IMG/VR virus record: IMGVR_UViG_3300009155_000206
Coordinates: 1-27,360 of that record
DNA: 27,360 nucleotides
Strand: one strand, 5' to 3'
Source: a virus
In this document: positions 2,802-26,553 of the stretch, in pieces
Numbering within the stretch: the first letter of the stretch is position 1
Layout: each line of letters begins with the position of its first letter
The notes under the pieces: model-generated
What the model saw: only the letters and a program-made list of their open reading frames with translations
What the model was told of the DNA's origin: nothing
Databases searched by the model: none
Made by a program: the position numbers and the translations under genes

Positions 2802-2843
2802 TTTTCGCTTGCAGGTATAACCTGTCCGAATAGCTTGTCGGCA

Positions 2844-3986
2844 ATGACACAAATCCATTGCCTAGCCGTGCCACATACCATCAGCAATGATGACTATGTG
2901 GCTTGTGCTTTTACTCAGAAAGTCCGCAAGTTCTTGACGATGTTCAAGGACTCGACCAAGTACCGCACGGTCCACTACGGCCACCCTGAGTCAGTCACCG
3001 ACGCGCATGAACACGTCGATGTGACTGACAACAAGACGCTTGTTGCTGCGTATGGGGAGTACGACTGGAAAAAGAACCTGTTTAAGCATGGGATCACGGA
3101 TCTGGCTCATACCGTGTTTAACGAGAGAGCTGCCAAGGAAATCAAGGCTAGGAAGAAGAAGGGCGATCTTGTGCTTTGCTTTTGGGGAGGCACACAAGCA
3201 GCGGCAGAATCAGCCAACGAATCAGATCTTATCGTTGTTGAGCCTGGGATAGGCTCAGGCGGGGCTTTCGCTCAGTTCCGGTGCTACGAGTCGTATCCGC
3301 TGAAAGCGGCTTTTGTGGGCACGCAGGGCGTCTCTTACTGCGATCCAAAGTGGTACTGGAGAGTGGTCCCGAATTACTTTAATCTGAACGATTTTAGTCC
3401 AGATGAAGACCGGGAAGAGTTTGCTCTCTACATCGGCAGGATCGGCAGAAACAAGGGACTGGATATCGCGATTGATGCCTGCTCCAGAATGGGAGTTAAG
3501 CTCAAAGTATGCGGTCAAGGCAGCTCCACTGATGTTGGCTATGATGAATGGCCCAGCCATGTGGAGTATTTGGGATACGCTGACATCGCTACTCGAAAGC
3601 AACTTATGGGCACGGCCAAGTTTGGCTTTCTCCTCTCGACGTACTGGGAGCCATTCGGGGGCACGGCAGTTGAGATGATGCTCTCCGGGTGCGTGCCGAT
3701 CTGTTCTGATGCCGGTGCGATGACCGAGTATATTGTGGATGGCGTGAACGGATTTCGCTGCAACACGATGGGCGACATCCTCAGAGCCATCAGACTAGTA
3801 CCAACTATTCGGCGCGACCGAATGGTTCGGTTTGCCCAAGATAACTTCTCACTTGATGCCGTGCGGCCCAAGTTTGAGCGTGCCTTTGATGACTTCTCTG
3901 ATGTCTTTAACGCCGGCGGTTGGTATGAAGACCACAATAGAGAATTGTCAGGCGTTGGACTCGAATACAAAGCATTGTACCTATGA
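2844..3986 (+). CDS. Glycosyltransferase, GT-B fold (GT4-like)
   Basis: The product has 380 residues from the ATG at 2844; a TTG at 2835 could add three residues. No strong ribosome binding site separates the two. The C-terminal half is a typical retaining GT-B domain. FALYIGRIGRNKGLDIAIDA starts the donor-binding half, and EPFGGTAVE carries the two glutamates of the EX7E motif. SGCVPICSDAGAMTEYIVDG and NGF follow, as in GT4 enzymes. There is no signal peptide or membrane segment, so it should act in the cytoplasm and transfer a sugar from a nucleotide donor. The acceptor is unknown: fibre protein, cell-wall precursor and DNA are all possible. The 4-nt overlap with the methyltransferase points to a joint function. 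Confidence 0.85.
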   Translation: MTQIHCLAVPHTISNDDYVACAFTQKVRKFLTMFKDSTKYRTVHYGHPESVTDAHEHVDVTDNKTLVAAYGEYDWKKNLFKHGITDLAHTVFNERAAKEIKARKKKGDLVLCFWGGTQAAAESANESDLIVVEPGIGSGGAFAQFRCYESYPLKAAFVGTQGVSYCDPKWYWRVVPNYFNLNDFSPDEDREEFALYIGRIGRNKGLDIAIDACSRMGVKLKVCGQGSSTDVGYDEWPSHVEYLGYADIATRKQLMGTAKFGFLLSTYWEPFGGTAVEMMLSGCVPICSDAGAMTEYIVDGVNGFRCNTMGDILRAIRLVPTIRRDRMVRFAQDNFSLDAVRPKFERAFDDFSDVFNAGGWYEDHNRELSGVGLEYKALYL

Positions 3987-4513
3987 GAATTATTGATGTT
4001 GGCTGCGGCCCCGGAATCTATGTGAAAGCCCTGCGGGAGGCTGGAGTAGATGCAGATGGAGTCGATCTGGACCCAGCGTGTCCATACGACATCATGGATG
4101 TATTTTCTGACGAGTTTGAGGCCAAATACAAAGGCTATGACTTAGCCATGTGTCTTGAGGTCGCAGAGCACTTGCCAGAGTCAAAGGCTGGCGACCTTGT
4201 CAAAAGGCTTACTGCGCTTGCTCCTACGGTCTTGTTTTCTGCCGCTGTGCCCAATCAAGGCGGACACGGCCACATAAACTGCCAGCCAAAGGAGTACTGG
4301 ATCGGCAAATTTGCGGAACTTAATTACGTTGTGGATTCGGTATCGACTCTCAAGCTTCTGGATTTCATTACGTCTGGATACCACATGGGGTGGTTTAGAA
4401 ATAATGCCGTAGTTTTCAAGCAATATGGAGCAACCTGCTATGCCAGCATCATCGAAGAGGAAACACCACAGGCGGTAAGGCTTGCTGAGTACCTGTCCCA
4501 AAATAAGCTTTAA
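3983..4513 (+). CDS. Class I SAM-dependent methyltransferase
   Basis: The start codon overlaps the glycosyltransferase stop (ATGA), so the two are translationally coupled. Residues 3-11 (IIDVGCGPG) form the glycine-rich SAM-binding loop. VDLDP at about residues 27-31 fits motif II, and AMCLEVAEHLPE at about residues 55-66 is the post-motif region typical of small-molecule and sugar methyltransferases. HGHINCQPKEYW resembles the late motif of UbiE/MTF_23-like enzymes. At 176 residues it is a minimal Rossmann methyltransferase with no target-recognition domain, so DNA methylation is unlikely. It may methylate a sugar added by its neighbour. The family is sure; the substrate is not. Confidence 0.85.
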   Translation: MRIIDVGCGPGIYVKALREAGVDADGVDLDPACPYDIMDVFSDEFEAKYKGYDLAMCLEVAEHLPESKAGDLVKRLTALAPTVLFSAAVPNQGGHGHINCQPKEYWIGKFAELNYVVDSVSTLKLLDFITSGYHMGWFRNNAVVFKQYGATCYASIIEEETPQAVRLAEYLSQNKL

Positions 4514-15695: not shown

Positions 15696-17327
15696 ATGAT
15701 TCTTCGACCAAGACAAAAAGCATTTGTAGAGAAGTGCCACACGGCGCTTGATCAGTACGGAGCAGCCCTTGGGGTTGCGCCAACCGGAGCAGGCAAGACT
15801 GTCATGCTCTCGGCAGCGGCAAGCCGATACAAGCGGACGCTCATTCTCCAGCACCGTGACGAGCTAGTCAGCCAGAACCGCAAAACGTTCACGGCTATTA
15901 ATCCGCGCATGAGGAGTGATTTATTCACGGCAGAGCGTAAGAACTGGGGAGTAAACGCCACATTTGGCATGGTTCAGACGCTCGTCAAGGAGCGAAACCT
16001 TGCGACCATGCCGAATAACTTGGACCTGTTGGTAGTAGACGAAGCACATCACGTTGCTGCCGCCTCGTACCAGAAAATCATTGAAGCCTTCCGAGAGCAG
16101 AACCCAGAGGGCCACATCTTGGGCCTGACGGCAACGCCCCAGCGCAGCGACCGAAAGGCGCTCATCGGCACGTTCCCGGTGGTCGCTGACATCATTCAGC
16201 TCGCTGAACTGGTTCAGGGTGGGTTTCTAGTGCGCCCTCGGGGGATCGTCATGGATCTTGGACTCAAGTCAGAACTGGACCGAATTCCCAAGACCAGCGA
16301 CTGGGACATGGACCAAGTGGCCGAGGTCATGGACAAGTCGCCGCTGAATGACCGGATCGTCAAGGAATGGAAGGCACAGGCCGGAGGACGGCGCACAGTA
16401 GTCTTCACTGCCACCGTGGCGCACGCCGAGCATCTATGCCAAGCGTTCGTTGAGGCCGGTGTGTCTGCTGTAGTAGTCCACGGTGAGATGGGTGGCGGAG
16501 ACCGCGCAGCAACTCTGAAGGGTTTCGACGAGGGACGGTATCAAGTGATACTAAACGTGGCCGTCCTGACCGAGGGTTGGGATTGTCAGCCTGTGTCCTG
16601 TGTAGTCCTCGTGAGGCCATGTTCGAGCAAAAGCGTTATGCTCCAGATGGTTGGGCGTGGCCTCAGAAAGCTGGACCCAGAGCGGTATCCTGGGCAGACC
16701 AAATCTGACTGCGTCATCATGGACTTTGGCTACAGCCTAGTGACGCACGGTAACCTGGAGGCGGACGTGCGGTTAATCCAGAAGGCCAAGGACTCCGAGC
16801 ACGGCGAGGCACCAGAAAAGACCTGCAAAGGGTGTGGGATCAAGCTGCCGATCAGTGTAATGATCTGTCCGATCTGCGGCTACGAGGACAAGATTTCTCG
16901 GGGAATCCTTGAGGAGTTCCGCATGACCGAGGTGGAATTGCTCGATGCGTCGCCGTTTATGTGGGAGTCGTTGTTTGACGGGCTGGTTCTGGTAGCAAAC
17001 GGGATGCAGGCCTGGGCGGCGGTCATCTCTTTTGGCGGAAACTTCTGGGCCGTGGGGGCTGTCGAAGGACAGCGTGTTCAGAAGATCGACGTGTCGGATG
17101 ACAAGATCCTAGCGATCTCCAGCGCAGATGATTTTCTGCGCACCAACGGCGACACAAGCTTGTGCCGGAAGACCCGGTCGTGGCTTAATCTGCCTCCGAC
17201 TCAAAAGCAACTTCAGCTTCTGGGTGGTGGCGCTTCCATGTTCAACATGAACCGCTACCGAGCATCCTGCCTACTGACATGGAACTTCAACGAGAACAAA
17301 ATTCGCACAAGAATTACCGCACGATGA
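15696..17327 (+). CDS. SF2 DEAH-box helicase with C-terminal zinc ribbon
   Basis: The product has 543 residues. Motifs in order are RPRQ at residues 4-7 (Q-motif-like), Walker A PTGAGKT at residues 29-35, DEAH at residues 115-118, LTATP at residues 144-148, and QMVGRGLR at residues 317-324 (motif VI). Four cysteines at 377, 380, 391 and 394 (CKGCG and CPICG) form a zinc ribbon after the helicase core. The remaining 145 residues show no known motif. The layout resembles phage RecG/RadD-like or YeeB-type superfamily 2 enzymes that remodel DNA. It probably works with the neighbouring Sak4-like and SSB proteins. The stop overlaps the next ATG (ATGA). Confidence 0.9.
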   Translation: MILRPRQKAFVEKCHTALDQYGAALGVAPTGAGKTVMLSAAASRYKRTLILQHRDELVSQNRKTFTAINPRMRSDLFTAERKNWGVNATFGMVQTLVKERNLATMPNNLDLLVVDEAHHVAAASYQKIIEAFREQNPEGHILGLTATPQRSDRKALIGTFPVVADIIQLAELVQGGFLVRPRGIVMDLGLKSELDRIPKTSDWDMDQVAEVMDKSPLNDRIVKEWKAQAGGRRTVVFTATVAHAEHLCQAFVEAGVSAVVVHGEMGGGDRAATLKGFDEGRYQVILNVAVLTEGWDCQPVSCVVLVRPCSSKSVMLQMVGRGLRKLDPERYPGQTKSDCVIMDFGYSLVTHGNLEADVRLIQKAKDSEHGEAPEKTCKGCGIKLPISVMICPICGYEDKISRGILEEFRMTEVELLDASPFMWESLFDGLVLVANGMQAWAAVISFGGNFWAVGAVEGQRVQKIDVSDDKILAISSADDFLRTNGDTSLCRKTRSWLNLPPTQKQLQLLGGGASMFNMNRYRASCLLTWNFNENKIRTRITAR

Positions 17328-17784: not shown

Positions 17785-17921
17785 GTATCGGATTTGATGG
17801 AGACGAGGACGACCGCTACGAGGAATGTCCGGTCTGCGAGAAGTGCAAAAATGAAATGAGCCTTGATTTGTGGGATGAGTGGTTCTGCGAGGTGTGCTCT
17901 AAGCCGGAGGATGAAGAATGA
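17778..17921 (+). CDS. Small acidic zinc-ribbon protein (47 aa)
   Basis: This short ORF overlaps the previous gene by 7 nt, and its stop overlaps the next start (ATGA). It encodes a very acidic protein with two Cys pairs: CPVCEKC near residues 17-23 and CEVC near residues 38-41. That gives a CxxC...CxxC arrangement likely to bind zinc. GAGCTAAAATG at its start has a weak ribosome binding site. Small zinc ribbons of this kind are frequent among phage early genes; the function is unknown. Confidence 0.65.
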   Translation: MLSIGFDGDEDDRYEECPVCEKCKNEMSLDLWDEWFCEVCSKPEDEE

Positions 17922-18196
17922 CAACTGAAACACTTATAGCAAACCTTAAAGAATTGCACCCGGTAGGGCCGCTTACAAATTCTTTAGTCACATTAGCGGC
18001 TTTGAGGCTGGAGGAGTTGCAGCGGGACTTAGTTAGGCTGCGTCGTACTACAACCCGCCCAGAGCCCTCGCGGCTGGAGATTGCGGCGATGTTAATAGCT
18101 GGGTCGTATGCGTGTCAGGATATCAATCCGCTGGAAGCAAACATCGCGCTTAAACAGGCAGACAAACTCATCGCAGCAGCAAAGGAGGCAGAATGA
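17918..18196 (+). CDS. Hypothetical early protein (92 aa)
   Basis: A purine-rich GGAGG stretch lies about 8 nt before the ATG, and the start overlaps the previous stop. The product is helical; the second half (LEIAAMLIAGSYACQDINPL, then EANIALKQADKLIAAAKEAE) looks like a conserved helical hairpin. Small proteins with such an 'AxxIAxG...A..AD.LI..A' ending are frequent in phage early regions and are unassigned. The stop overlaps the next start (ATGA). Confidence 0.6.
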   Translation: MTTETLIANLKELHPVGPLTNSLVTLAALRLEELQRDLVRLRRTTTRPEPSRLEIAAMLIAGSYACQDINPLEANIALKQADKLIAAAKEAE

Positions 18197-18873
18197 CCGT
18201 AATGCCTGCTAACGCAACAGGGTGGTTTTGGCATTATCTTGCGCGAGAAACTGGCAAAATCGGCCATTTGTTTTCGCCCGACGCCCAGCGTGGCCCGTGG
18301 CCGTGGATGCCTTATGCCTTGGACAACGGCGCATTCGCAGCGTGGGACATGGCCGCCAATGTTTGGGATGAATCAAAATGGGATGTTAATGCATGGCGGC
18401 GCATGATCTTTTGGGCGCAGGCTCAACAGCAGCAACCGCTCTGGGCCATCGTTCCAGATTGGATCGGAGACGGTGATAAGACCATTGAGCGGTGGCAGCA
18501 ATTCAAAGATGAAATTCCGTTTCCGAAAGCCTTAGCAGTGCAAGATGGAATGACGGTGGAGGCAGCTCGGGCGTTAAATCCTGACGTGATTGCGATTGGC
18601 GGCACAACCGACTGGAAGTGGGCGACGGTCGAAATGTGGGCAAAAGAGTTTCCGCGAGTCCATGTCCTTAGAGTCAACAGTCCTTCAAATTTAGATTACC
18701 TTGAGTCTTTGGGGATTGAAAGCTGTGACGGTACAGGGTGGAATCGCGGAAACAAAAATCAAACCATGGGACTGGAACTTTGGGCAAGAGAAAACCCACA
18801 ACCAAGGGCTGACTTGCTGACGCCTTTTACTTGTCGGCAACAACGCGACAAGGAGCAAATGACTTTTGCATGA
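18193..18873 (+). CDS. TGT/DpdA-like base-exchange protein (queuine tRNA-ribosyltransferase fold)
   Basis: An AAGGAGG site lies 5 nt before the ATG. The 226-residue product has the ordered motifs of the tRNA-guanine transglycosylase superfamily as seen in phage DpdA-like proteins: LDNGAF with D44, VPDW at residues 87-90, QDG at residues 117-119, IGGTTDWKW at residues 135-143, VLRVNSPSNLDYLESLGI at residues 158-175, and SCDGTGWNRGN at residues 177-187. By analogy with TGT, D44 may be the general acid/base and D179 the nucleophile. Such enzymes swap guanine for a 7-deazaguanine in DNA or tRNA. It is shorter than bacterial TGT (about 370-380 residues) and lacks the C-terminal zinc site. No precursor-synthesis gene is seen in the window. 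Confidence 0.72.
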   Translation: MTVMPANATGWFWHYLARETGKIGHLFSPDAQRGPWPWMPYALDNGAFAAWDMAANVWDESKWDVNAWRRMIFWAQAQQQQPLWAIVPDWIGDGDKTIERWQQFKDEIPFPKALAVQDGMTVEAARALNPDVIAIGGTTDWKWATVEMWAKEFPRVHVLRVNSPSNLDYLESLGIESCDGTGWNRGNKNQTMGLELWARENPQPRADLLTPFTCRQQRDKEQMTFA

Positions 18874-18911
18874 GTCCACATGAATTACATTTACACTGGA
18901 AAAACAAACAA

Positions 18912-19160
18912 ATGACCGACAAACAGATCAACGCGGCGATTGAAACAGTGCTGCACCAAAATGAGCATTGGATGATCTCAAGAGACTACTGCACCGACCT
19001 CAATGCAATACATGAGGCGGAGCAGACGCTGAAAGGAATGGCGCTTTATGAGCATATCGATCAATTATTTGACTTATGCTATGAACCAACTATTGCCACA
19101 GCACGCCAACGCGCAGAGGCGTTTCTGAGGACGCTGGGGAAGTGGGAGGAGGCAGAATGA
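18912..19160 (+). CDS. Small phage protein, paralogue 1 (82 aa)
   Basis: The ATG at 18912 is chosen because the product then starts like its neighbour (MTDKQINAAI against MTNKQINAAI). An ATG at 18870 overlaps the previous stop and would add 14 residues. The shared core is INAAIxxV near the start, LNAxHEAEx in the middle, and ATARxRAEAFLRTLGKWEE at the end. This 'LNAMHEAEK...ATAxQRAEAFL' pattern is widespread in small phage proteins that may have an alpha-beta-alpha sandwich fold. The function is unknown. The stop overlaps the paralogue's start. Confidence 0.65.
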   Translation: MTDKQINAAIETVLHQNEHWMISRDYCTDLNAIHEAEQTLKGMALYEHIDQLFDLCYEPTIATARQRAEAFLRTLGKWEEAE

Positions 19161-19474
19161 CAAACAAACAAATTAACGCGGCGATCGCTGAGGTGTGTGG
19201 GTGGACTGGCATTTTTGAGCATCCAGAGTTTGGATTGATGGGAGTCGCCCCGGAGACGCATGGCTGCCGGACTGCGGTTGAGGAGTACGCCCACTGCCTC
19301 AATGCGATGCATGAGGCGGAGAAGTTGCTGAATTCTGATGACATTTTTGAAGCGTACTACTTGGCGCTTTATGAAACGACCCAGTCAACACGCTGGCCAG
19401 TGTGTGCAACTGCCCGCGAACGCGCAGAGGCGTTTCTGCGCACGCTGGGCAAATGGGAGGAGGTGCAGGGGTGA
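19157..19474 (+). CDS. Small phage protein, paralogue 2 (105 aa)
   Basis: The start overlaps the previous stop (ATGA). It repeats the architecture of the gene before it, with a 20-residue-longer middle that contains GWTGIFEHPEFGLMGVAPET. The DNA around the C-termini is nearly identical for about 35 nt (CAACGCGCAGAGGCGTTTCT against CGAACGCGCAGAGGCGTTTC), so one copy probably arose by tandem duplication. The function is unknown; it may bind a partner in replication or host takeover. Confidence 0.68.
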   Translation: MTNKQINAAIAEVCGWTGIFEHPEFGLMGVAPETHGCRTAVEEYAHCLNAMHEAEKLLNSDDIFEAYYLALYETTQSTRWPVCATARERAEAFLRTLGKWEEVQG

Positions 19475-20256
19475 GTGCAAAGAACATGTTTGAACCACCA
19501 AAGCAGCGTCACAATGAGGAAATCGAGGCCGCTATCTCCAATGCACTCACCATCACCAGAAGCAGAGAAGACCGGCGCACCTACCTTGGGGCGTCGAGAT
19601 GGGGGCATCACTGTGAGCGCGCACTCGGATACGAGTTCCATGCCACTCCCAGAGACGACATGTCCAAGCCCCAGTTCAGTGCTAACTTGTACCGCGTATT
19701 CGACATGGGACACGACGGCGAGAGTCGCATGTCCGAGTATATGCGAATGGCGGGGTTTGAGTTGCAGACGGAAAAGCCAGGAGGCGGTCAGATAGGGTTC
19801 TCGGTCTGCGGAGGAAAGCTTGGTGGGCACTGCGACGGCATCGTCCACGGTGGCCCCGGTATTAGCAAGGCGCCGCTTGTCTGGGAGAATAAGGCGCTCA
19901 ACAACAAATCGTGGAGTGATACCAAGGACAAGGGTGTCGCCAAAAGCAAGCCGCTGTACTACGCGCAGATGCAGACCTACATTGCATATCTCGATTTGCA
20001 AGGTTTCCTGTTTACGGCCATGAACCGAGACACTGGGGAGGTCTACGTTGAGTTGGGTGAGCCAGATATGAGGTTGGCTCAGGAGGTCAGCGACAAGGCG
20101 CTGCGCATCATCCAGAGTGAGCACCCAGAGCAGTTGCCGAGGGCGGCGAGTGTAGAAACAGACTGGCAGTGCCGGTTCTGTGACTTCCAGAAGCAGTGTT
20201 GGGGGCGGAAAGAAACGCCAGTCGAGCAGCGTCAGTACTTTAACTACAAAAAATGA
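19471..20256 (+). CDS. PD-(D/E)XK nuclease with Cas4-like Fe-S cysteines
   Basis: The GTG at 19471 overlaps the previous stop (GTGA) and has GGAGGAGGT about 8 nt upstream. The product has 261 residues. H81 (MGHDGE), D122 (GGHCDGI) and E139-x-K141 (WENKAL) give the H...D...ExK active site of the PD-(D/E)XK superfamily, and YYAQMQTYIAYL is the following helix. Four cysteines fit a Cas4/AddB-type cluster: C48 near the N-terminus and C234, C237 and C243 near the end (CRFCDFQKQC). Such enzymes process DNA ends for recombination. It overlaps the primase-helicase start, so the two are coupled. Confidence 0.85.
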   Translation: MSAKNMFEPPKQRHNEEIEAAISNALTITRSREDRRTYLGASRWGHHCERALGYEFHATPRDDMSKPQFSANLYRVFDMGHDGESRMSEYMRMAGFELQTEKPGGGQIGFSVCGGKLGGHCDGIVHGGPGISKAPLVWENKALNNKSWSDTKDKGVAKSKPLYYAQMQTYIAYLDLQGFLFTAMNRDTGEVYVELGEPDMRLAQEVSDKALRIIQSEHPEQLPRAASVETDWQCRFCDFQKQCWGRKETPVEQRQYFNYKK

Positions 20257-22697
20257 TGACAGAGAAAAATGAAAGCCTGGTCCACTTTGATGAGGCCCAG
20301 GTCAGGGAACACTTGTCTTTTATCTTCGGGGCTGTCGACTTTCAGCCCGGAGCATATATTTGTCTCCGAGGGATCGGAGAGAAGGGAACAGCGCAGGAAG
20401 GCACGTTCAGGGAAGAGTTTTTCTTTGAGCCGGCAGTGGAACAGAACTGGATGAATTCAGCCGTAGAGCACTGCCAACGCTGGGGACAGCATGCCGTGGC
20501 CTCGTTCATTGTGCCGTGCGTATTGAAAGCACCCAAGGCAACGTCTTTAAATGTCAGCCAGTTTACCACAGTTGTTGCGGACTTTGATTCTGGTAACACA
20601 GATGAGCGGATCGCTTGGGTGGCGGAACACATTGGAATGCCGGATTTGGTGGTCGAGTCTGGTGGAACTACCGAGGCCGGAACGCCAAAGCGGCATGCCT
20701 GGTGGAAGATTGAACCCACTGCTGATATTGAGGGCGTCATCAATCTGCGCCACGCAATTGCCGAGAAGTCCGGTGGGGATTTGATGCTGGGGCGGGGTGT
20801 GAAGGCCAATCCATTTGGCCGTTCTCACCAGCCAGTAAGAATCGCCGGCACAGTACACGGCAAGGGCGGTACGGCGAAGCCGTGCCGGTTTGAGTGGAGT
20901 GGGGAGATAACTGGAGACTGTCTGCACACTGACTTTGCCGACAAGGTTAAGGAGGTTCAGCCAGCTCCGTGGGCAACGAGGACAGTGATGTCCCTTGGGG
21001 ACGGGAATAACGTGATTCGGGGACTCTTTGGGGAGGATAGCACGAACTCAGGGGAGGACTTTGAGCCGGTGGAACTGAATAGGGATGTTCATGCCGGCGG
21101 GGACACAGTCACTCGCTTCGGAGAGTTTAACCGGGTTGCCGGGCACTACATCCACTGTGTGCGGCGCGGGGACATGGACAAGGCAGAAGCCTTTGAGGCA
21201 TTGAGTGGGTGGGTGAGCGCCCACATGAAACCAGCATGGCCTGAGGCGCGAGTGAGGACAGAGTGGGAGGCCCTGTGCCGTCAGGACGTGTCCTCGAAGG
21301 GTGCTTTTACAGAGGAAAAATCGGGGACACACTCGGGGACAGGGGCGCTGCCAGTGGGGGAGAACGGTTTGCTAGCGTGGAGTGCCCACCGGTGGATCAC
21401 CGACCCAGTTCCGGTACACGAGGAACTGGTAGAGGGTTTGGTGCTCAAGGGTGAGCCGCATCTGTTTGTGGGTGAGGGTGGATCGGGAAAGACGTTTCTT
21501 GTGGCAGATCTGGCGCTGAAGGTGGCGGCCTGGAACGAGGCCAAGGACTATTTCTGGTGCGGTCAGAAGGTCCGCGCCGGTGGGACCGCTGTGTTGATTC
21601 TGTGTGAGGATAGCCAGACCGAGATGCATATCCGGATCAAGCAACTCGATCAGGGGGGACTGATCAATCAGGCCGGTGACCGATTGATAGTACTACCAAT
21701 GACCAACATTGGGGGTGCGTTTCCGCTGACCCAGCGGAACTCGAAGACCGGTGAATCGGTTACATCAGACCGCTGGCGGTCCATGCTGGATCTGATGAAG
21801 GCGCTCCCGGAGCCGCCGGTTCTGGTGGCGATTGATACGCTTAACAGTGTGTCGCACGGGGACGAGAACTCGAATGTCGTCATCGCCGAGATGATGCGGG
21901 AGGCCCACCGCGTTTGCGGGGAGATGGGAGCGGCTTTGCTGATTAACCACCACATCCGCAAGTCAAACGAGCCTTTAAGATCTCTGGAAGAATTACGCAG
22001 TGCGATCCGTGGAGCGTCAGCGATTCCCTCGTATTTCCGCATCAACTTTGGGATGTTTCATGCAAGCGATTACGAGCGGCGCATGAAAGCGATGAGCATG
22101 ACTCCAAAACGGGGCGCAATGTGGAAGTTCGGAGTCGTAAAAGCGAACATTCATGGGCTCTTGCAGGGCGAGCGTACTCTGTTGCGTAATGGGATCGGCC
22201 TCTTGGAGGACATTACCGTTAACGACTCGTATGCCGCTGTGAACGTGTCTGAGCGTGTGGCTTGGATGGTTTACGCCATTCAGCAGGCGGCCTCGGCGCT
22301 GCATCCGTACGCTGTGGGTGGGAAGAATGCCGCCAACGGTCTCTATAAGCGCAGGAATGAGCTGCCACAGATCTTAAGGGGAGTAGGCTGGCGGGAGTTC
22401 GGGAACCTGGTTGAGGAAGCATTGGTCAAGGGACTGCTAGTGCCGTGTGCGGTGCGCGGATCAAAATCGAAGACGTATTTGGATGTACCGGGTGGGGTGT
22501 TGTCCCAGGACGAAGCAGGTGTAACGATAGCCTCTGGGTCGTATAACACGGCCCCAGAATGGGAGGATTTTTACTTCGATGCGGACTCCGGCGAGGTAGT
22601 TTTGGCCGCTAAAAGCAACGCTTGGAACGCGCAGTTTCAACGTACTGTGCCGCCCATGGGTGGCCCAAAGAGAAAAAGTGAGGATTTGGACCCATAG
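20253..22697 (+). CDS. Primase-helicase: N-terminal AEP-like primase fused to RepA-type hexameric helicase
   Basis: The product has 814 residues. The N-terminal 210 residues look like an archaeo-eukaryotic-type primase: ADFDSG with D110 and D112 as metal ligands, RHAWWK at residues 147-152, and QPVRIAGTVHGKGG at residues 193-206 are the expected spaced motifs. A linker of about 190 residues follows. The C-terminal part is a RecA-fold RepA/AAA_25-type helicase: Walker A GEGGSGKT at residues 407-414, Walker B VLVAIDTL at residues 523-530, and INHH at about residues 557-560. The RepA part is followed by a winged-helix-like end. It should open and prime the origin, which may lie immediately downstream. 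No other replicative polymerase is in the window. Confidence 0.88.
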   Translation: MMTEKNESLVHFDEAQVREHLSFIFGAVDFQPGAYICLRGIGEKGTAQEGTFREEFFFEPAVEQNWMNSAVEHCQRWGQHAVASFIVPCVLKAPKATSLNVSQFTTVVADFDSGNTDERIAWVAEHIGMPDLVVESGGTTEAGTPKRHAWWKIEPTADIEGVINLRHAIAEKSGGDLMLGRGVKANPFGRSHQPVRIAGTVHGKGGTAKPCRFEWSGEITGDCLHTDFADKVKEVQPAPWATRTVMSLGDGNNVIRGLFGEDSTNSGEDFEPVELNRDVHAGGDTVTRFGEFNRVAGHYIHCVRRGDMDKAEAFEALSGWVSAHMKPAWPEARVRTEWEALCRQDVSSKGAFTEEKSGTHSGTGALPVGENGLLAWSAHRWITDPVPVHEELVEGLVLKGEPHLFVGEGGSGKTFLVADLALKVAAWNEAKDYFWCGQKVRAGGTAVLILCEDSQTEMHIRIKQLDQGGLINQAGDRLIVLPMTNIGGAFPLTQRNSKTGESVTSDRWRSMLDLMKALPEPPVLVAIDTLNSVSHGDENSNVVIAEMMREAHRVCGEMGAALLINHHIRKSNEPLRSLEELRSAIRGASAIPSYFRINFGMFHASDYERRMKAMSMTPKRGAMWKFGVVKANIHGLLQGERTLLRNGIGLLEDITVNDSYAAVNVSERVAWMVYAIQQAASALHPYAVGGKNAANGLYKRRNELPQILRGVGWREFGNLVEEALVKGLLVPCAVRGSKSKTYLDVPGGVLSQDEAGVTIASGSYNTAPEWEDFYFDADSGEVVLAAKSNAWNAQFQRTVPPMGGPKRKSEDLDP

Positions 22698-25845: not shown

Positions 25846-26553
25846 CTAGTTGAGGGAAAGGTTAAGAACGGCTTTTTCGGTCTGGTACCCGTGTGCCTTG
25901 ATCCAAACGGAAGGAAGTGAACGTGAGCGTGTTGCGCTTCTTTTTGTGCCGTCACAAAGACCGCAATCTATGCATTGCAGCCCTTTCGTATCGGAAAGGC
26001 ATTCGATTCCAAGCGCTTTATCCGTTGGCACTTCCGAGACAACCGTAAAGGTGCGCAAGCCAAGGTTTTGAGCGTACGACACGTTATGGGGCTCGCAGGA
26101 AGCCATGAAGTATTTCCCATAAGCTTTCGCTAGTGAGACCGGCATGATATTCCAATCGTGGAAATAGCCTGTGTGCGAGACGCTTAGGCTGGCAATGTTC
26201 TCAATCATTTCAAGGGGTAGGATGGACGGATTTCCGTAGGCGCCAAAGCGCACGGCCTCGCCTAAAAAGAAGCTATCCCATTCGGCGGAGCCGATTTGCA
26301 GATGGGAGTAGCTTCCTGCTTTGTACGCTCTCCAGAGAGCCATCAACGGCAAGGGAGAGACGTAACATCCTTTATTTGAAGCATAAGGGCAACCAGCGCA
26401 CTGGAGAGTAGAATCATGGCCCGTGCGGCGGCTCTCTACGGGGTGGACGTTGCGGCTCATGATCCAGATCTGAAGCATCGGGCCGGTTTTTGCGTTATTG
26501 CTTGCGGGAGTGGCGATTGCTACCGTGTCGGCGGTTTCGTGAATGATGTACAT
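25846..26553 (-). CDS. Cys-rich protein of unknown function (235 aa)
   Basis: This is the largest gene of the minus-strand cassette. Two Cys clusters, C52/C55/C63 (CAGCPYASNKGC) and C185/C194/C197/C200 (CIDCGLC), and a lone C153 look like metal or Fe-S sites. Other conserved-looking motifs are MLQIWIMSRNVHPVESRRTG, VRFGAYGNPS at residues 101-110, TGYFHDW at residues 128-134 and FMASCE at residues 149-154. I know this pattern (R-x-G-A-Y-G-[DN]-P with TGY-x-H-x-W) from a family in phages and plasmids with no assigned role; I cannot name it reliably. It heads a five-gene transcript, divergent from the terminase gene. Confidence 0.72.
   Translation of the reverse strand: MYIIHETADTVAIATPASNNAKTGPMLQIWIMSRNVHPVESRRTGHDSTLQCAGCPYASNKGCYVSPLPLMALWRAYKAGSYSHLQIGSAEWDSFFLGEAVRFGAYGNPSILPLEMIENIASLSVSHTGYFHDWNIMPVSLAKAYGKYFMASCEPHNVSYAQNLGLRTFTVVSEVPTDKALGIECLSDTKGLQCIDCGLCDGTKRSATRSRSLPSVWIKAHGYQTEKAVLNLSLN

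Follow-up and report, generated by a model that had tools for sequence, protein, structure and literature searches.

Can a viral protein of only 226 residues be a base-exchanging enzyme of the tRNA-guanine transglycosylase (TGT) superfamily, and if so, does it act on tRNA or on the DNA of the virus itself? The question is raised by a gene in an IMG/VR virus record (IMGVR_UViG_3300009155_000206) of 27,360 nucleotides, which was analysed over its whole length and is called here the window. An initial annotation had described the gene product as a TGT/DpdA-like enzyme, possibly involved in 7-deazaguanine modification of phage DNA. We propose that this short enzyme probably edits the virus's own DNA and hides it from host restriction enzymes, because many related viruses carry genes for making the base directly beside the gene of the short form.

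The gene and its relatives

The open reading frame (Table 1) runs from an ATG start to a TGA stop, and its start overlaps the stop of the upstream frame 17918-18196 by four bases (ATGA). A helicase gene (15696-17327) lies on one side and a Cas4-like gene (19402-20256) on the other, followed by a gene for an AAA_25 primase/helicase-type ATPase (20253-22697), so that the location first assigned to the gene, within a replication block, proved right. Megablast comparison of the window with annotated phages returned no match.

Relatives were found at several levels of similarity: 30 close viral relatives with 56-95% identity, 255 relatives in a family-profile search and a sister clade of the short form with 460 members. 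The dN/dS ratio, taken from pairs with unsaturated dS only, is 0.03-0.09. All 76 relatives compared have the same residue at D44, N45, P88, D89, Q117, G119, G136, G137, D179, G180, T181, W183, R185 and G186. Taken together, the relatives at all levels, the invariant residues and the low dN/dS mark the gene as genuine, beyond chance, and as being under strong purifying selection. More than 700 environmental contigs were matched in two scans, a number from which overlap between the scans was not removed. Among cellular genomes, relatives were found only in Verrucomicrobia and a myxobacterial metagenome-assembled genome (MAG). Two contigs of Verrucomicrobia LW23 (L123 and L124), seemingly the same prophage stretch, have the short TGT gene between terminase-like and portal-like genes.

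The motifs of the superfamily named in the initial annotation, including D44, D179 and the W-N-R-G segment, are all present in their order (Table 1). The two peculiarities that it had pointed out were confirmed as well: the protein is about 150 residues shorter than bacterial TGT, and its only two cysteines, C178 and C214, leave no zinc site of the TGT type (CxCxxC...H). With the putative catalytic aspartates and the GG motif in order, and with a predicted TGT-type barrel, the protein is by motif and model a member of the superfamily.

Table 1. Positions in the window of the short transglycosylase gene, its ribosome-binding site and the codons of its putative active site
Feature	Position	Strand	Remarks
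Short DpdA-like transglycosylase gene	18193..18873	+	226 aa; PHROG 15826 family
Ribosome-binding site AAGGAGG (Shine-Dalgarno-like) of the short DpdA-like gene	18182..18188	+	sequence
D44 codon, putative general acid/base (LDNGAF)	18322..18324	+	76/76 identical; aligned with DpdA LDSGAF; by motif corresponds to TGT TDSGG
D89 codon (VPDWIGD)	18457..18459	+	76/76 identical; DpdA counterpart LDGIGD; TGT counterpart by motif AFDEC
Q117 codon (AVQDG)	18541..18543	+	76/76 identical; TGT counterpart by motif IVQGG; His in this motif of canonical DpdA
G136-G137 codons (IGGTT), putative base-binding GG motif	18598..18603	+	76/76 identical; aligned with DpdA IGG
D179 codon, putative catalytic nucleophile (SCDGTGWNRG)	18727..18729	+	76/76 identical; aligned with DpdA SCDSSSW
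W183-N184-R185-G186 codons	18739..18750	+	W, R and G invariant in 76/76

The region downstream of the gene has features of its own. A conserved peptide, M(S/H)PHELHxxW, starts directly after the TGT stop codon and overlaps it (18870-18920 in the window). It occurs at the equivalent place in most close relatives (L003, L005, L051-L058, L060, L061, L064, L068-L073), where it continues into differing downstream proteins, and its appearance suggests a small coupled leader or, alternatively, a recombination joint. Two tandem small paralogues (18831-19160 and 19142-19474) contain repeated DNA segments of 24-59 nt that are 83-87% alike. Many related phages carry such paralogues with repeats in the surroundings of their TGT gene, and the region is a likely site of cassette exchange.

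Fold and place among known families

Standard domain searches do not recognize the protein. Pfam yielded no family for it at an E value of 10, the TGT model PF01702 matched none of 19 relatives at an E value of 1, and PDB sequences, searched with phmmer and with profiles, contained no real match. Among PHROGs, the best profile was 15826 ("unknown function"; E 1.3e-23, profile positions 18-197 of 212), followed by a weak match to 887 (queuine tRNA-ribosyltransferase, E 5e-5). An AlphaFold2 model, built on an alignment of 35 relatives, is a beta/alpha barrel with pLDDT of 89.2, for which Foldseek retrieved from PDB the TGT 3unt as best hit (E 9.5e-5) and the DNA preQ0 insertase DpdA 7ui4 as second (E 1.1e-4). 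Aligned with TGTs by VIA-align, residues 1-203, nearly the whole domain, reach a Z of about 12. Pyruvate kinase, an unrelated TIM barrel, ties with TGT in Z, and the fold on its own is therefore not decisive.

Profile-profile comparison with ten canonical phage DpdAs gave a probability of 94% (E 9e-8). The alignment pairs LDNGAF with LDSGAF, PDWIGD with LDGIGD, IGG with IGG and SCDGTGW with SCDSSSW, and places D44 and D179 on DpdA aspartates. The match to the short clade of actinophages and Vibrio phages is much stronger (99.7%, E 1e-25). The identity proposed at the outset is thus supported by the two top Foldseek hits, by the profile match to canonical phage DpdA and by the Que operons of relatives described below; a fold other than the TGT-type barrel, which would have counted against it, was not what the model predicted. 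On this evidence the 226-residue protein is homologous to canonical phage DpdA and yet belongs to a separate, shorter and zinc-less family.

This family is PHROG 15826, with which the window protein shares length class and ordered motifs. Members from actinophages, for example Sonali gp81 and Phegasus gp54, bear the annotation "DpdA-like tRNA-guanine transglycosylase". The PHROG 15826 sister clade is only 26-40% identical to the window protein, and in place of the DGTGWNRG motif of the window clade it has DGT or DGS, after which comes a loop that varies.

Canonical phage DpdA (PHROG 887; Seurat/CAjan, Rosebush and Dp-1 type) shares with the short form the TGT-type barrel, the order of motifs (D..GAF, D-x-IGD, IGG, CD(S/G)) and the linkage to QueC, QueD, QueE and FolE. 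It is filed in a PHROG of its own and is longer (about 240-385 residues, mostly near 300, with a C-terminal region in the alignment of ten). The histidine of its PxxH/H.GE motif is invariant in the ten sequences, whereas the corresponding stretch of the short form, ALAVQDGM, has no histidine and its glutamine is conserved in 76 of 76. Both forms occur together in Sonali, R29Z, phiG7 and L150; because phages such as the first three carry both, the two need not be redundant, and the short form might serve a different function in them.

DpdA2 of Vibrio phage nt-1 (YP_008125322), encoded beside QueC and with the same proposed job, also lacks the conserved histidine of canonical DpdA (PMC6884629). 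It is 464 residues long, against 226, and a comparison of profile to single sequence detected no similarity between it and the short family. Bacterial TGT has the barrel and the motif order TDSGG / FDEC / VQGG / IGG / FDC that are kept in the short form, but the latter has neither the zinc site nor the additional 150 or so residues and is missed by the Pfam model. The bacterial DNA preQ0 insertase DpdA (7ui4) has 413 residues, with 17% identity over the aligned region, and the window contains no dpd island. Literature on DpdA2, DpdA3 and short DpdA, covering open-licence papers, describes no family of this kind. Since the window protein lacks the histidine and the length of canonical DpdA, the zinc site and the Pfam match of TGT, and, in the comparison of profile to single sequence, detectable similarity to DpdA2, we place it in a short DpdA-like family of its own, which probably works like DpdA. 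This would be a third, minimal family beside canonical DpdA and DpdA2.

Two database entries of relatives deserve mention. The short TGT of Erythrobacter phage ZS04 (L128:4887-5528) is annotated as "DarB-like antirestriction protein", a name that looks wrong for a protein showing this transglycosylase family's motifs. In Escherichia phage phiG7 (L131:4938-5530), and likewise in SHIN8, two overlapping ORFs in different frames together make up the short TGT, which is either a frameshifted relic or a case of programmed frameshift.

Linkage to 7-deazaguanine synthesis

Four viral contigs (L102, L105, L106 and L107) contain an operon of the order TGT-QueC-QueD-QueE-FolE2, headed by a short TGT that is 50-54% identical to the window protein. 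In L106, QueC and FolE2 score above the NCBIfam/Pfam cut-offs (218.6 bits against 150.3 and 285.5 against 215, respectively) and QueD exceeds its Pfam cut-off; QueE is the best family for its gene, yet under the NCBIfam cut-off. No DpdA/TGT-like match besides the short TGT was found in the four operon records, which are fragments of 7-18 kb. QueC, QueD and FolE2 are present in L112, QueD adjoins the short TGT in L111, and QueC adjoins it in a Verrucomicrobiales MAG (L121). In the tree, the full operon falls within one clade of the window's group and L111 is placed elsewhere; the linkage to the pathway is therefore not one single event.

The sister clade has the same association. QueC, QueD or QueE is located at most 641 bp from the short TGT, mostly less than 65 bp away or overlapping, in 46 of 80 loci, as counted on metagenomic fragments with home-made HMMs (QueC matches are strong, E about 1e-50). 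At 70% identity the loci form 29 clusters, of which 9 include linked loci. Two large clusters, of 16 and 19 loci, account for many of those with QueC, so that independent events are fewer than 46. A canonical DpdA lies within 6 kb of the short TGT in one of the 80 loci only, L150. The Que and FolE2 operons of relatives and the adjacency in the sister clade tie the short family to 7-deazaguanine synthesis, and by this gene context it belongs to 7-deazaguanine metabolism.

A further neighbour, suggestive only as to its linkage, is a gene for a PAPS-reductase-like PP-loop ATPase. In five clear cases (L051:4417-5319, L054:5081-5941, L060:4587-5444, L081:3-818 and L113:4438-5529) it lies from 60 bp to 0.7 kb upstream of the short TGT, all five falling within a limit of 1.6 kb, and both of the proteins tested belong to PHROG 424. 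Such a gene also adjoins the short TGT in ReqiPine5 (gp02), and in L152 it is upstream of QueE and TGT. It is conceivable, if quite improbable, that the short enzymes are a third DpdA class in which, in a part of the window clade, the PAPS-reductase-like ATPase finishes the base, giving a 7-deazaguanine derivative undescribed in DNA.

As PHROG 15826 is labelled "unknown function" and Pfam gives no match, annotation pipelines miss a likely DNA-base editor in hundreds of environmental viruses. The operon linkage to Que genes provides this family with a testable function. At about 200-235 residues it may include the smallest natural base-exchange enzyme of the TGT type, useful for studies of structure and mechanism and possibly, as a compact tool, for introducing 7-deazaguanines into DNA.

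Substrate, base supply and alternatives

We consider it likely that the protein is a minimal, zinc-less TGT/DpdA transglycosylase which puts a 7-deazaguanine into phage DNA against restriction, the base being supplied in the window phage by the host. By analogy with TGT and DpdA, D179 would attack C1' of the target (deoxy)guanosine and form a covalent intermediate. Guanine would leave, and a 7-deazaguanine, likeliest preQ0 or a near intermediate, would replace it before resealing, the incoming base being held by D44, D89, Q117 and the GG motif. The likeliest target would be phage DNA and the likeliest benefit protection from host restriction. DNA is favoured as substrate on two grounds: the protein is homologous to DNA-acting phage DpdA and not matched by the Pfam model of TGT, and its gene moves between dsDNA phages.

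A tRNA-directed phage TGT, inserting preQ0 or preQ1 into host or phage tRNA and tuning translation, with the Que genes feeding tRNA queuosine, would be in keeping with the exchange for which the superfamily is named and with Gln117 in AVQDG, which is nearer to IVQGG of TGT than to the histidine of canonical DpdA. It is unlikely, as the protein is missed by PF01702 and detected by both the phage DpdA PHROG and the phage DpdA profile, as the zinc subdomain of TGT is missing from the short form, and as a full TGT is already encoded in a Verrucomicrobia genome that carries a relative.

In relatives with FolE2-QueD-QueE-QueC the base would be made by the phage. In agreement with the initial annotation, which had seen no precursor-synthesis gene in the window, the 27,360-base record, a fragment without most of the virion block, yielded none of QueC, QueD, QueE, FolE and FolE2. 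The same holds for eight related records of 27-42 kb, the near-complete ones included. Weak QueC matches in G005-G008 were discarded, covering only model positions 4-32 and falling under the cut-off; in G006 and G007 the match lies in a virion-block gene carrying SGGKDS. By its gene content the window phage is of the "singleton" or "DpdA only" type, so its base would depend on host preQ0, drawn from the queuosine pathway of the host. The prophage-bearing Verrucomicrobia LW23 has its own full TGT and QueC, which makes precursor supply by such a host plausible there. M. smegmatis, on the other hand, lacks preQ0 synthesis (PMC6884629); it is the host of cultured phages, for example Majeke and Phegasus, that have the short form and no canonical DpdA.

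It is rather improbable that, despite a competent enzyme, the window phage in practice remains unmodified or modified only in traces, with a base from neither phage nor host and the gene a mobile moron that pays only in some hosts. Phages with differing backbones indeed share the gene at 74-88% identity, synthesis genes are absent from the window and its eight relatives, and among DpdA-only phages Orion has no modification, 7-11 a trace of dADG (PMC6884629) and MED16 about 0.13% dADG (PMC8306585). Purifying selection and the complete catalytic conservation argue instead for regular use, and queuosine synthesis is common in bacteria, LW23 included. The short family makes it testable why some phages have an inserting enzyme without synthesis genes.

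A role as non-inserting partner of canonical DpdA or of host TGT, be it as a second subunit comparable to eukaryotic QTRT2 or as an enzyme that removes bases, would suit the four cases in which both forms are carried, but is very improbable, given that most relatives have no canonical DpdA nearby and that both catalytic aspartates are invariant, unlike in a non-catalytic partner.

Two other loci of the window were recorded. The minus-strand gene 25846-26553 encodes a protein of 235 residues (PHROG 2554, unknown, E 6e-35; weak DUF7227) with cysteine clusters of CxxC type resembling an iron-sulfur site. In the tail region, a glycosyltransferase gene (2835-3986), homologous to one in the siphovirus-like contig G002, overlaps a methyltransferase-like gene (3983-4513).
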